DNA of 64,000 nt from Bacteroidia bacterium (GTDB lineage: Bacteria > Bacteroidota > Bacteroidia > UKL13-3), in assembly GCA_023151275.1 (NCBI GenBank), contig JAKLJI010000002.1, positions 152,800 to 216,799 on the forward strand, read 5' to 3'. Below the pieces are notes generated by a model. That model searched no databases, was not told the DNA's origin, and worked only from the letters and a program-made list of their open reading frames with translations. Shown one piece after another: positions 4,256 through 8,790 of the stretch (position 1 is the first letter of the stretch; each line of letters begins with the position of its first letter). Position numbers and translations under genes: made by a program.

Positions 4256-4870
4256 ATGTTAGTTCAGCTTCATCCCAAGAACCCAAATCCAAGGGATGTA
4301 AAAAAAGTAATTGATACCCTCGCCAAAGACGGAGTAATAATTATTCCAACAGATACCATTTATGCCATGGCGTGCAGGTTGGATAGTAGAAAAGGAATTG
4401 AGCGTATGGCTAGAATTTCAGGAAAGAAAGTAGAAAAGGTAAACTTTTCACTGCTTTGCTCCGATTTATCACATATCGCCGATTATACTGTTGTAATCGA
4501 TAAACATGTATTCCGGTTGATGAAAAACAACCTTCCTGGCCCCTTTACTTTTATTCTAGGAGCTAACAAAGAAACAAGTAGATACTTCAGTGGCAACAAG
4601 AAAACCATTGGCATTCGTGTACCCGACAATATCATCGCTCAAACTTTAGTTGCCGAGGCTGGAATTCCACTACTTGTAACCACCATTCATTCCGATGATG
4701 AAATTATTGAGTACATGACCGACCCCGAAGAAATTCACGATAAATTTGAAAATTTGGTTGACTTGGTGGTAGATGGCGGCGCTGGAGGAAATATTCCTTC
4801 GACCATTATTGATTGCTTAGAGGATGAGCCTTTGTTGATTCGGGAGGGAAAAGGAAAAATCGTTTATTAG
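4256..4870 (+). CDS. YciO/Sua5/YrdC-family protein (threonylcarbamoyl-AMP synthase-like)
   Basis: A 204-residue single-domain protein of the Sua5/YrdC/YciO/YwlC superfamily. It resembles E. coli YciO in length and in motifs: IIPTDTIYAM near 30-39, a basic KKTIGIRVP segment near 120, and IPSTIIDC near 182. Sua5/TsaC members make the threonylcarbamoyl-AMP used for t6A tRNA modification; YciO itself is a weaker or uncertain relative. The C-terminal Sua5 domain is absent. The last 65 bases overlap the 3' end of the convergent secreted-protein gene. I am confident of the superfamily and less so of the exact activity, since another TsaC may exist elsewhere in the genome. Confidence 0.9.
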   Translation: MLVQLHPKNPNPRDVKKVIDTLAKDGVIIIPTDTIYAMACRLDSRKGIERMARISGKKVEKVNFSLLCSDLSHIADYTVVIDKHVFRLMKNNLPGPFTFILGANKETSRYFSGNKKTIGIRVPDNIIAQTLVAEAGIPLLVTTIHSDDEIIEYMTDPEEIHDKFENLVDLVVDGGAGGNIPSTIIDCLEDEPLLIREGKGKIVY

Positions 4871-5765
4871 CAACTTGTTTCTTTTTGCCAATTAACACGC
4901 CAATGGCAATTGAAAATTGGTCGGCATGACCCCATTCATTGTTGCCTCCTCCAAAAAAACCAATTTGCTGAAAAATATCTTCTAATCTCGGTTCCCTTTT
5001 TTGGGGACCTGTTCTTTCAATATCCTTATGGTCCTTCCGACCGGTTCCCAATCCATAAGTAAAAGAAAGCGCAATGCGGTCGTAAAAAATCCATTGCCTA
5101 CCAATTGAAAAGAGAAAAGCCTTTCCCCAAACCTGTCGCTTAATGGTATTGAATGGATCCCCGGGTGCCGGATAAGAATCATCCCACCATTTTTCTTCGA
5201 CTACAAAACTAGATTGGAAATATTCTGCCTGGGCAAACCACCCGTTCAGTAGATGCGGATGGTATTTCGTTGCCCGCTTTCGTTGAAAGGTGTATTTCAA
5301 TCCAACAGCAGCTTCCAGGCCACTTACATGGTCAATATCTCCGGTTTGACTTCCAACGCCCATCACATTGCATAACAACTTCGCACTAAAGCGAGGATAA
5401 ATGGTCTTCTCCACTCGTAATTTCAGTTGCTCAAAGAAAATGGGCACCAATTCGCTGCTTATCACCCAAGATCGTTGCATAGGATAAGTGGAAAGCGAAG
5501 ATTCCTTATGGGATTTGGGCGGAAAACTAAACAACTTCCCATTTTGAAAACGAATGGAACTCAAGTAAGCACGATCTATACTTTTGGCAACGGTTTGGCT
5601 GCCATCCCAAACCAGGTAATGCACCCTTCGTGGGGTAATATTGGTAACCTTGCAGGAGAGTGAATCTTTTCGATTATCAGCAATCAATACATCTTGTGAG
5701 AACAAGGTTTCAGAAGCCAAAACCAAGTTCAAAAAAAGAAGGAATTGATTGATGCGCTTAATCAT
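4806..5765 (-). CDS. Secreted protein, third of three tandem paralogues (copy C)
   Basis: A 319-residue protein with a signal peptide (MIKRINQFLLFLNLVLASETLFSQ). A short N-terminal module (RKDSLSCKVTNITPRRVHYL) matches the one in the two genes upstream. The remainder has the alternating aromatic and polar pattern of an outer-membrane beta-barrel, including YAQAEYF-like strands and IGRQWIFYDRIALSFTYGLG. It starts 1 base after the stop of copy B, so translation is probably coupled. It is the most divergent copy. Its last roughly 20 residues (after IGVLIGKKK) extend beyond the ends of the paralogues and are encoded over the 3' end of the YciO-like gene. Function unknown. Confidence 0.8.
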   Translation of the reverse strand: MIKRINQFLLFLNLVLASETLFSQDVLIADNRKDSLSCKVTNITPRRVHYLVWDGSQTVAKSIDRAYLSSIRFQNGKLFSFPPKSHKESSLSTYPMQRSWVISSELVPIFFEQLKLRVEKTIYPRFSAKLLCNVMGVGSQTGDIDHVSGLEAAVGLKYTFQRKRATKYHPHLLNGWFAQAEYFQSSFVVEEKWWDDSYPAPGDPFNTIKRQVWGKAFLFSIGRQWIFYDRIALSFTYGLGTGRKDHKDIERTGPQKREPRLEDIFQQIGFFGGGNNEWGHADQFSIAIGVLIGKKKQVANKRFFLFPPESTKAHPLSNQ

Positions 5766-5766
5766 C

Positions 5767-6687
5767 TCATTTTTTCAATTTAGGCAATTTAACATTCGTT
5801 AAAAAACCAAGCCGTAAACCATAATTGAATACAAAATTAGGGCCATCGGTATCAATGCCATAAAAACCCAGGTTAAAGGATTCATCATCGAGTGGACCTC
5901 CATAATTTGAACCACTCTGACCCGCCGGATAGACCGTATTATCAGTGAAGTTTTTCTTTCCGATTCCGGGTGCCAAGAACAAATCCAGACAAACTGCATC
6001 CGAGAAAACCCATTGTTTCCCAAAATTTAAAAACAAGCCATAGCCAAAAACTGAGTTTTTTGCTTCAAACGTTTTATAAGTATAACTTGGTGCATAGGTA
6101 GAATACCCACTAGTTGTTGTAACTGAAAAATAGGTCAGCATTAGTTCAGGTTTAACATAGGCACCTTTTAATAAGTGCGAATACCGCATTCCGCGTAAAT
6201 AAAAATCGGGCGTATTAATAAACTTGTATCCAAAGCCCAAAGCAACACCTGAAGCCTTATCGTATTCTTCAAAAGTATTTACTCCAACTCCTATAATATT
6301 CAAACTTACTTCCCTGCTTCTGCCCGGCTTGAGGCTTTGCTCAGCTGTCACAACAAATTGGTCACCCAAAAAATCAAAAGGAGTGATTTTAAAAGCAAAC
6401 TTTTTCTGGTTGATATAATTCTCTGCATTGTCGAATTCCGACTCAGCAAATTTGAATTCCTGGCCATTGGTGAAAATAATTTTTAGCACCCGATCCCTGG
6501 GTTGAGTAAAAATGGGCATCAAGGAATCAACCGGCCATTGCTTGTACTTAATGACTTCGGTACCAATTTCGGTTACCTTCACCAAAAGGGTATCCCCCTT
6601 TAAACGCATAACCATTTTATCCTGGGCCTTGAGGCAAATACCCATCAGAAAAAACGGCACAAAAATAAAAGCGTAAATTTTACTCAT
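5767..6687 (-). CDS. Secreted protein, second of three tandem paralogues (copy B)
   Basis: A 306-residue protein with signal peptide (MSKIYAFIFVPFFLMGICLKAQ). The N-terminal module GDTLLVKVTEIGTEVIKYKQ (about residues 31-50) is a motif seen in many Bacteroidota envelope proteins; the rest looks like a small outer-membrane beta-barrel ending NYGLRLGFL. Shared blocks with copy A include YKFINTPDFYLRGMRYSHLLKG and NFGKQWVFSDAVCLDL. It overlaps copy A by 4 bases (ATGA) and is followed 1 base later by copy C. Function unknown; tandem duplication is the clear inference. Confidence 0.85.
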   Translation of the reverse strand: MSKIYAFIFVPFFLMGICLKAQDKMVMRLKGDTLLVKVTEIGTEVIKYKQWPVDSLMPIFTQPRDRVLKIIFTNGQEFKFAESEFDNAENYINQKKFAFKITPFDFLGDQFVVTAEQSLKPGRSREVSLNIIGVGVNTFEEYDKASGVALGFGYKFINTPDFYLRGMRYSHLLKGAYVKPELMLTYFSVTTTSGYSTYAPSYTYKTFEAKNSVFGYGLFLNFGKQWVFSDAVCLDLFLAPGIGKKNFTDNTVYPAGQSGSNYGGPLDDESFNLGFYGIDTDGPNFVFNYGLRLGFLTNVKLPKLKK

Positions 6688-7532
6688 TTTGAATTCTTCA
6701 ACAAATAGCCCAGCCGCAAACCAAAACTAAAACACATTCGAACTCCCGGGTTAAAACCATTATAATCAAAACTTGGAACATATACAAAACCATAAGGGAT
6801 AACCACACCCTCATCCGAAAGTACTGAGTTTGAGTTATTGTCTGAAAGCGTATTTTTATAACCAAGTCCAACCCCGGCATACAAGTCCACACACATAGCA
6901 TCATCAAATACCCATTGCTTGCCAAAATTCAGCATACCAGCCAAGCCAATGTAATTATCATTTAAAATCTGGTAGTAAGTGCCAATAACCTCTGGTTTGA
7001 TATAACTTCCTTTAAGAATGTGCATATACCGCATACCATCAATATAGTAATCTGGTGTATTAATGAATTTGTAACCTGATTTCAGGGTAATGCCGGATGG
7101 GTTTCCGAATAATTCCCGAGACAATCCAAGTCCAATTCCATGGATTGAGTATTCATAACTTCTTCCAGGCTTGATACTTTTTTCAAAACTAATACCGGTT
7201 TGAGCTACAAGTAAACCAAAGGGAGCAATTTTAATGGCCATTTTGCGCTGGTTGGCATAATTGCCTGGGTCTGAAAAACCATCCTCGTAAAATTTCATTT
7301 GCTGGCCGTTTGAAAAAATTATCTTTTTCAAACGACTCGTTCTTTCTTCAATCAAAGGAAAATCGTCTGAAACCGGCCAAAGTTTATAGGTAATTTTCTC
7401 AGTCCCTACCTCAACTACCTTTACCAACAAGGTATCTGAAGTGCTGCGAAATATCAATTTATCTTGGGCTTTTCCAAGGTTAATGTTCAGAAGGAAAAGC
7501 GTCAAAATGATAACTGGGCGAAATTGAATCAT
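6684..7532 (-). CDS. Secreted protein, first of three tandem paralogues (copy A)
   Basis: A 282-residue protein. ATG at 7532 is preferred because it gives a normal signal peptide (MIQFRPVIILTLFLLNINLGKAQ), while the longer open frame runs back through the promoter. The module SDTLLVKVVEVGTEKITYKL is followed by beta-strand-rich sequence with FINTPDYYIDGMRYMHILKG and NFGKQWVFDDAMCVDLYAG, close to copy B. It ends GLRLGYLLKNSK. The gene opens a coupled three-gene operon. Likely location is the outer membrane; no enzymatic motif was seen. Confidence 0.85.
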   Translation of the reverse strand: MIQFRPVIILTLFLLNINLGKAQDKLIFRSTSDTLLVKVVEVGTEKITYKLWPVSDDFPLIEERTSRLKKIIFSNGQQMKFYEDGFSDPGNYANQRKMAIKIAPFGLLVAQTGISFEKSIKPGRSYEYSIHGIGLGLSRELFGNPSGITLKSGYKFINTPDYYIDGMRYMHILKGSYIKPEVIGTYYQILNDNYIGLAGMLNFGKQWVFDDAMCVDLYAGVGLGYKNTLSDNNSNSVLSDEGVVIPYGFVYVPSFDYNGFNPGVRMCFSFGLRLGYLLKNSK

Positions 7533-7556: not shown

Positions 7557-7564
7557 CAAAACTA
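7557..7564 (-). promoter_or_regulatory. -7 promoter element of the three-paralogue operon
   Basis: TAGTTTTG on the minus strand matches TAnnTTTG exactly and lies 24 bases before the ATG at 7532. It supports choosing that start over the longer frame. Confidence 0.5.
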
Positions 7565-7764: not shown

Positions 7765-8790
7765 ATGACAAATCCCATATTGGTTGAAATTCATCGCGGT
7801 GGCATTTTGGAAAGCTTCCACAGAGGAGTGGTATGTGTGGTAAATGAAAAAAAAGATGTTGTTTATGCCAAAGGTGATATTCACCAACTCTGTTATCCCC
7901 GTTCTGCCATGAAACTGCTTCAGGTAATTCCTTTGATTGAAAAAGGGGGAATGAGCAAATTTGATTTCAACCTGGAAGAAGTTGCCTTGATGTGTGGCTC
8001 TCACAATGCAGAAGAAAACCATATTCGAGTGTTGAATTCGATACTTGATAAGATTGGCATGAATTATAGCGACCTGGAATGCGGTGCTCAGATGCCAAGT
8101 TCAAAAAAAGACAGTGAAAAGTTGATAAAAAACGACCAAAAACCGGGACCACAGCACAACAATTGCAGCGGGAAACATGCAGGTATGCTTGCACTTTGCA
8201 AGTTGTTAGGGCATGAAACTAAAGGTTATATCCATCCCCAGCATCCCATTCAACAAGAAATACAACAAGTTTGTGCAGACATGTATGAATATCCGGTAGC
8301 TAAAATGGTTTGTGCGCTCGACGGTTGCTCAGCACCCATTTTCTCTATCCCGGTTTATAACCAGGCTTTAGCATATAGAAATTTGTGCGGGAACACTGAA
8401 TTTACTGAAAGTCGAAATCAAGCCCTCGCAGTCATTCGTGAAGCAGTAAGTACATTCCCGTTTATGGTTGCCGGGAGTAAGCGATATTGCACCGATATGA
8501 TGAAAATTACAGCTCCATCTGTGATTGGCAAAACGGGTGCTGAGGGAATTTTTTGCATGAGCTTCACAAATCACAACCTGGGAGTTTGCATCAAAATTGA
8601 TGATGGCAAAATGCAACCTCAATACGCAGTAGCTCAACAACTGCTGGAAGAAAGCGGACTTTTCCCCAATGACCAACTTCAAACCCTCACTCATTACAAA
8701 AAACAGGATATCAAAAATTTCAACCATTTCGTGACAGGTGAATTTCATGCCAATCGCTTAGGAATTGACCCGATTTACTTTCAGAAATAA
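7765..8790 (+). CDS. L-asparaginase II family protein
   Basis: A 341-residue member of the asparaginase II family typified by the Rhizobium etli ReAII enzyme (Pfam Asparaginase_II), which hydrolyses asparagine to aspartate and ammonia and is unrelated to the E. coli AnsA/AnsB fold. The visible blocks are RSAMKLLQ near residue 50, LMCGSHNAEENH near 77, HNNCSGKHAGMLALC near 132, DGCSAPIFSIP near 178 and MVAGSKRYCTDMMK near 235, with the conserved Ser, Lys and paired Cys of the family. ATG at 7765 fits the family (MTNPILVEIHRGG); the longer upstream frame adds a non-homologous hydrophobic piece. No signal peptide, so cytoplasmic. Confidence 0.88.
   Translation: MTNPILVEIHRGGILESFHRGVVCVVNEKKDVVYAKGDIHQLCYPRSAMKLLQVIPLIEKGGMSKFDFNLEEVALMCGSHNAEENHIRVLNSILDKIGMNYSDLECGAQMPSSKKDSEKLIKNDQKPGPQHNNCSGKHAGMLALCKLLGHETKGYIHPQHPIQQEIQQVCADMYEYPVAKMVCALDGCSAPIFSIPVYNQALAYRNLCGNTEFTESRNQALAVIREAVSTFPFMVAGSKRYCTDMMKITAPSVIGKTGAEGIFCMSFTNHNLGVCIKIDDGKMQPQYAVAQQLLEESGLFPNDQLQTLTHYKKQDIKNFNHFVTGEFHANRLGIDPIYFQK

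Follow-up and report, generated by a model that had tools for sequence, protein, structure and literature searches.

Three tandem genes, referred to here as A, B and C, probably encode paralogous outer-membrane proteins. According to structure models and profile comparisons, each would combine an eight-stranded beta-barrel with a periplasmic N-terminal module and is likely to act at the cell surface, the copies having been tandem-duplicated in a variable chromosomal slot. The genes lie in the window, i.e., the whole stretch of 64,000 nucleotides that was analyzed, as head-to-tail ORFs on the minus strand, all three frames being intact over ~280–320 codons (Table 1). The first-pass annotation had described them as secreted and translationally coupled, and this layout was confirmed: A and B overlap by 4 bases (B starts at 6687 and A ends at 6684), B and C lie 1 nt apart, and each deduced product opens with a hydrophobic, signal-peptide-like leader ending in ..QD.

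Table 1. Features of the A–B–C locus and its flanks (positions in the window).
Feature	Position	Strand	Description	Basis
Gene A	6684-7532	(-)	282 aa; signal peptide followed by the N-terminal beta module and a predicted 8-stranded barrel, the latter placed via alignment to B	ORF, translation, alignment A1
A N-terminal module	7278-7466	(-)	Residues 23-85	Placed via alignment to B
A barrel domain	6699-7241	(-)	Residues 98-278	Alignment to B; barrel-only profile match
Gene B	5767-6687	(-)	306 aa; architecture as A; ATGA overlap with A	ORF, model mean pLDDT 80.3
B N-terminal module	6436-6624	(-)	Residues 22-84	Model, profile
B predicted eight-stranded barrel	5797-6399	(-)	Residues 97-297	Model, with the OprF barrel as PDB match (Z 12.7)
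Gene C	4806-5765	(-)	319 aa; architecture as A/B, most divergent; 1-nt gap after B	ORF, model mean pLDDT 80.0
C N-terminal module	5508-5696	(-)	Residues 24-86, approximate	Model, profile
C predicted eight-stranded barrel	4890-5468	(-)	Residues 100-292	Model and PDB comparison
C/yrdC-type tail-to-tail overlap	4806-4870		Last ~21 codons of C and stop, 65 nt	
Sua5/YciO/YrdC-family gene	4256-4870	(+)	Convergent with C	Pfam
Asparaginase II family gene	ATG taken at 7765	(+)	gyrB next after the asparaginase gene	Pfam
TAGTTTTG at A	7557-7564	(-)	Candidate Bacteroidetes -7 element, 24 nt before the ATG of A	
Second TAGTTTTG	6722-6729	(-)	Inside A, 34 nt before the ATG of B	

The paralogy proposed for the three copies was evident in local alignments past residue 23. 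The scores (A/B 542, B/C 171, A/C 120) lay far above the maxima obtained with 300 shuffles each (66, 52 and 57, respectively), so the similarity is significant for all three pairs. The blocks DTLLVKV, YKFINTPD and NFGKQWVF were found in A and B, and divergence grows toward C as described earlier, the identity to B being 48% for A and 26% for C. Searches of the own genome retrieved A, B and C as the sole matches, both with B as the query (E <= 1) and with the profile of alignment A1 (E <= 1e-6; 36 of the 41 candidates scored). The N-module occurred there in A, B and C alone, and a profile of barrel-only proteins (A6) found one extra protein, C66:70730-71299 (E 3.9e-10).

Structure models were made for B and C from alignments A1 (26 sequences) and A2 (25 sequences). 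The predicted folds did not differ: both models showed a signal peptide, an all-beta module of ~60 residues (B 23-79) and eight barrel strands, with mean pLDDT and pTM of 80.3 and 0.61 for B, and 80.0 and 0.60 for C. This agreement is partly built in, since A1 and A2 hold almost identical sequence sets. When a second-look structural aligner was run against the PDB, the N-domain of OprF was the best match to B (Z 12.7, rmsd 2.6, 132 aligned) and to C (Z 12.7, rmsd 3.0, 131 aligned), followed by OmpA, OmpW, CarO, NspA and a Thermus outer-membrane protein; by the guidance of this aligner, models without a clear match typically top out at Z 7–8. With Foldseek alone, the best PDB match had E 6.8e-3 and none reached E <= 0.001, and the barrel call therefore leans on the second-look Z-scores and on profile homology. 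Sequence searches of the PDB gave nothing credible, B alone producing one match at E 0.39 and the A1 profile none. The N-module profile A4 picked out a designed SH3-like protein (E 0.15, 23 positions), which was not used as evidence. B and C are thus predicted to form eight-stranded barrels of the OmpA/OprF type, and the shared N-terminal module and barrel-like C-terminus, previously read from short motifs, are supported by the two models and their solved structural matches.

The assignment of the proteins to a family required profile comparisons. A, B and C fell below every curated cut-off of Pfam and NCBIfam and had no match in PHROGs at E <= 0.1. DUF3575 (PF12099), which comprises Bacteroidetes proteins without an assigned function, has a cut-off of 21.1 bits; C reached 13.4 bits, and A and B did not match it. 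At E <= 1, DUF3575 matched 11 of the 26 members of A1, with a best value of 4.9e-5. In hhalign, A1 aligned with the barrel-only alignment A6 (16 rows) at a probability of 99.7 and E 1.6e-26 across residues 90-297 of B, and the four A6 proteins scanned against DUF3575 all passed its cut-off (three of locus L057 at 33-38 bits, one of L054 at 23.4). The barrel region is hence homologous to proteins that pass the DUF3575 cut-off, and on these sequence profiles A, B and C most likely form a remote branch of a known, functionally uncharacterised DUF3575-linked family.

Of 64 genomes from the same taxonomic family, 42 (the own genome counted) gave a match to the A1 profile at E <= 1e-6, with candidates scored incompletely in some genomes. 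Many of these matches spanned the N-module alone (model positions 1 to ~89) or the barrel alone (~94 to 298), which points to a modular protein. In a phylum-wide sample of 61 genomes, five, the genome of the window included, had the N-module (E <= 1e-4); this rarity, together with the restriction of the module to A, B and C in the own genome, weakened the idea of a common phylum-wide adaptor. Of the nine g2 genomes searched, six had barrel-only genes in a tandem triplet, one locus in each (L057, L058, L060, L063, L064, L069). None of the papers retrieved by a literature search on tandem eight-stranded barrels of Bacteroidetes had a title on this topic. By eye, the N-module was also seen to head other C-terminal parts, some of them with hydrophobic, membrane-helix-like stretches.

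The lumen of an eight-stranded barrel is too narrow for a general porin. OmpW, CarO and AlkL are thought to transport or bind small hydrophobic or metal ligands, and A, B and C might be specific transporters or receptors of this kind, each copy specialised for its own ligand. OmpW and CarO do stand among the top structural matches (Z ~11-12.5), but structural barrels of the OmpA/OprF type score equally. DUF3575-annotated genes, possibly only distant relatives of A, B and C, are listed in iron- and hemin-response gene tables for Bacteroides and Porphyromonas (PMC10434189, PMC10470040). No TonB-dependent receptor or metal gene was recognised by eye beside the array in the window. A role as ligand-specific transporters or receptors appears to us rather unlikely.

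We favor small surface proteins instead. In OmpA, both barrel ends face the periplasm. If the same rule holds here, the periplasmic turns contain the motifs YKFINTPD..GMRY..HLLKG and NFGKQWVF, and the outer hairpins contain the variable stretches. With the two sides labelled by hand on the structure model, conservation reached 2.81 bits per column in the putative periplasmic half of the barrel (82 positions) and 1.57 in the outer half (101 positions), a difference equalled by 2 of 200 rotations of the profile. The invariant glycines of the family are retained in C. We infer an outer-membrane location, a periplasmic N-module and exposed variable loops for all three proteins. The leader would export each protein, and the last ~200 residues would fold into the OmpA/OprF-type barrel, the beta module of ~60 residues ahead of it being left in the periplasm by the OmpA rule. 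The long variable hairpin tips, in which the copies differ, would point outward, and selection would hold constant the periplasmic side and the N-module. Such proteins could serve in binding, shielding or the structure of the envelope, with an outer surface that differs between copies and a periplasmic base that stays constant; a function toward a molecular target is likewise something that we infer.

Tandem duplication would have produced the copies in a variable slot flanked by two housekeeping genes, the yrdC-type and the asparaginase gene. In 30 of the 64 genomes these two genes shared a contig and lay within 8 kb of each other, and members of the protein family occupied the slot in eight of them in runs of one to four (window 3, G024 4, G065 3, G072 2, G061 2, G062 2, G018 1, G063 1). 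Tandem runs of 2–4 copies recur in several relatives. In the other 22 slots, no ORF matched the A1 profile at E <= 10: six held no recognised gene (10 to 407 nt), six a gene resembling the YegS-type lipid kinase of L073 (L073 was scanned, the others were judged by eye) and ten other genes. In the three other genomes of the window's genus, counted among these ten, the slot contained a lipoprotein gene and a gene for a secreted protein of 324-328 aa; no family match was found in the three such genomes searched (one of them 79% complete), which suggests that the family is dispensable. Among the 34 strong matches (E <= 3.5e-35; some are gene pieces cut by contig ends), 18 were situated in slots and four elsewhere in the genomes. 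The remaining 12 formed runs beside one flanking gene, the contig being broken or the other gene missing or far (G058 2, G064 2, G069 4, G034 3, G067 1). With 8 of 30 slots occupied by its members, the family appears to come and go in a variable slot. A cassette protein found beside some arrays (A5) was considered as a hidden relative of the barrels and rejected, the similarity being confined to the N-terminus/signal peptide (probability 6%).

The history of the copies was traced in a main tree of 20 sequences, from which 14 long or divergent rows of the 34, C among them, had been dropped. The first-position copies of five g3 genomes formed one clade (95/93); a separate one (98/94) united copies in last or second position from seven g3 genomes. 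Both clades persisted when C and a few divergent rows were added (94/93 and 97/94), and with all 34 rows they became smaller and weaker (81/86 and 85/86). The first two copies of G034 made a pair of their own outside the first-position clade (99/96), and the third copies of G065 and G069 sat on long branches placed elsewhere. Two diverged copies have thus persisted next to each other in several g3 species. Local duplication followed by specialisation, as put forward in the first-pass annotation, therefore holds for g3 with its orthologous copy classes; C need not be a recent local copy. A and B may stem from a duplication in their own lineage: their grouping had a support of 89/82 (not starred), and six constrained groupings relating A and B to the two g3 copy classes all remained statistically acceptable (p-AU 0.07 to 0.38).

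The maintenance of a two-class pair in genus g3, the tight spacing of A, B and C in the window and the conserved, putatively periplasmic face, a possible docking surface, would all fit a joint hetero-oligomer in the outer membrane, in which the translational overlap would keep the copies in balance and every copy would fill a distinct position. The arrangement of the genes in relatives speaks against it. Neighbouring copies in arrays of two-module relatives are separated by 0 to 93 nt (ATG start taken for the second gene of L008), so these arrays do not conserve the tight coupling found in A, B and C; the 4-nt overlap recurred in L032 between two N-module-only genes. Singletons exist as well (G018, G063, G009). 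Some second copies also carry a promoter-like element of their own: the Bacteroidetes promoter consensus has -33 and -7 elements, and G058_2 and G034_2 each have their own TANNTTTG with a TTTG 18 or 19 bases ahead of it. In the window itself, and apart from the question of assembly, the claim that all three genes stand behind one TAGTTTTG promoter element failed, as an identical TAGTTTTG precedes B and neither copy has a properly spaced -33 box. Within 26 bases upstream of the element of A, no -33 box was present at ~19 bases, the only TTTGs being 4 and 9 bases away, and the 26 bases upstream of the TAGTTTTG of B contained no TTTG. Further TAGTTTTG copies lie inside genes at 5204 and 7184, and the general pattern TANNTTTG falls short of expectation across the window (57 observed versus 80 expected). 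Eight-stranded barrels of the OmpA/OprF type are usually monomers. A hetero-oligomer of A, B and C is, in our judgement, improbable.

C stands apart from the other two copies. Its end branch measured 5.6 against a median of 0.55 (3.7 against 0.71 in the tree of all 34 rows), and the sequence appears to be either an old copy or a fast-evolving one. Its placement in the first, 34-row tree was not used because long branches met there. Forcing A, B and C into a single clade cost 9.5 log units, and this grouping was not rejected (p-AU 0.079). The tail of C that runs over the yrdC-type gene has low pLDDT in part and is absent from the other A1 members. A decaying expansion of little function, with C drifting, could account for this long branch, for the run-on tail and for the lack of a match in all three other same-genus genomes searched, but it is very unlikely given the three intact frames, the invariant glycines of C and the quality of its model.

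Tandemly duplicated surface barrels hence remain our preferred explanation. A bolder version, which we think improbable, is that such barrels are maintained as interchangeable units, the N-module and the periplasmic face docking to one shared periplasmic partner while the outer loops of the copies diverge and so expose different surfaces, and that the yrdC–asparaginase slot is a lineage-specific site for envelope cassettes. The analysis gives an uncharacterised group of proteins a testable fold and membrane topology as well as a link to DUF3575, sets a conserved, putatively periplasmic face apart from variable surface loops, and reveals a chromosomal slot in which related genomes carry different envelope genes. 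It does not overturn existing knowledge of outer-membrane barrels, among which A, B and C would be fairly ordinary.

Among the known systems, DUF3575 proteins share with A, B and C the homologous barrel region and the occurrence in tandem (the barrel-only triplets), whereas the N-terminal beta module is an addition of A, B and C, which also score under the DUF3575 cut-off. The N-domain of OmpA/OprF has the same number of strands as the predicted barrels of B and C and is their top solved match, but sequence identity is near 10%. In A, B and C, the presumed periplasmic domain precedes the barrel and, unlike in OmpA, no peptidoglycan-binding C-terminal domain follows it. The last strand is followed by 9 residues in B and 27 in C, and Pfam gave no OmpA-domain match for A, B or C, which places them outside the OmpA family proper. 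OmpW, also an eight-stranded barrel, and CarO resemble B and C as small outer-membrane barrels with near-tied Z-scores; they differ in sequence, with ~7-11% identity over the structural alignments and no match in the PDB sequence searches.

Genus g2 holds tandem triplets of barrel-only proteins, each of about 185-227 aa, which are a second instance of threefold tandem barrels. All three proteins of the L057 triplet scored above the DUF3575 cut-off. Two further relatives had truncated or split frames (see the table), possibly due to frameshifts or assembly errors.

Coordinates of the features in the window and in related loci (L handles, other genomes of the family)
Feature	Locus	Position	Remark
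Overlap of C and Sua5/YrdC-family gene	window	4806-4870	convergent; 65 nt, at 3' end of YrdC-family gene
Barrel-only triplet, g2	L057	1408-3317	
	L058	161-2070	
	L064	174-2043	
Truncated or split frame	L011	5004-5636	
	L016	4815-5795	
Slot cassette, g3	L081	270-5610	
	L088	77-4409	
	L009	7935-10105	
	L082	304-2459	
	L083	279-2422	

The overlap with the Sua5/YrdC-family gene gives C an extra tail of ~21 residues, which had no counterpart in the remaining members of alignment A1 and was poorly modelled in the structure of C. The tail looks as if an earlier stop codon had been lost.

In genus g3, the yrdC-asparaginase slot, the same as that of the barrel genes, is filled by a cassette that encodes three secreted proteins, one of ~220 aa and two of ~160-195 aa, along with a short lipoprotein; in L081 it flanks a barrel gene on either side. 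The Pfam scan of four L009 cassette proteins left three without a match at E <= 1 and gave the fourth only a lipoprotein-signal match, below cut-off. The ~220-aa protein was rejected as a barrel relative, no relation to barrels being found.

By eye, the ~60-residue N-module precedes non-barrel C-terminal parts that contain hydrophobic, helix-like stretches in L023, L025, L032, L059, L061 and L066. Because the module also fronts such parts instead of a barrel, a single periplasmic module carried on differing membrane anchors is suggested.
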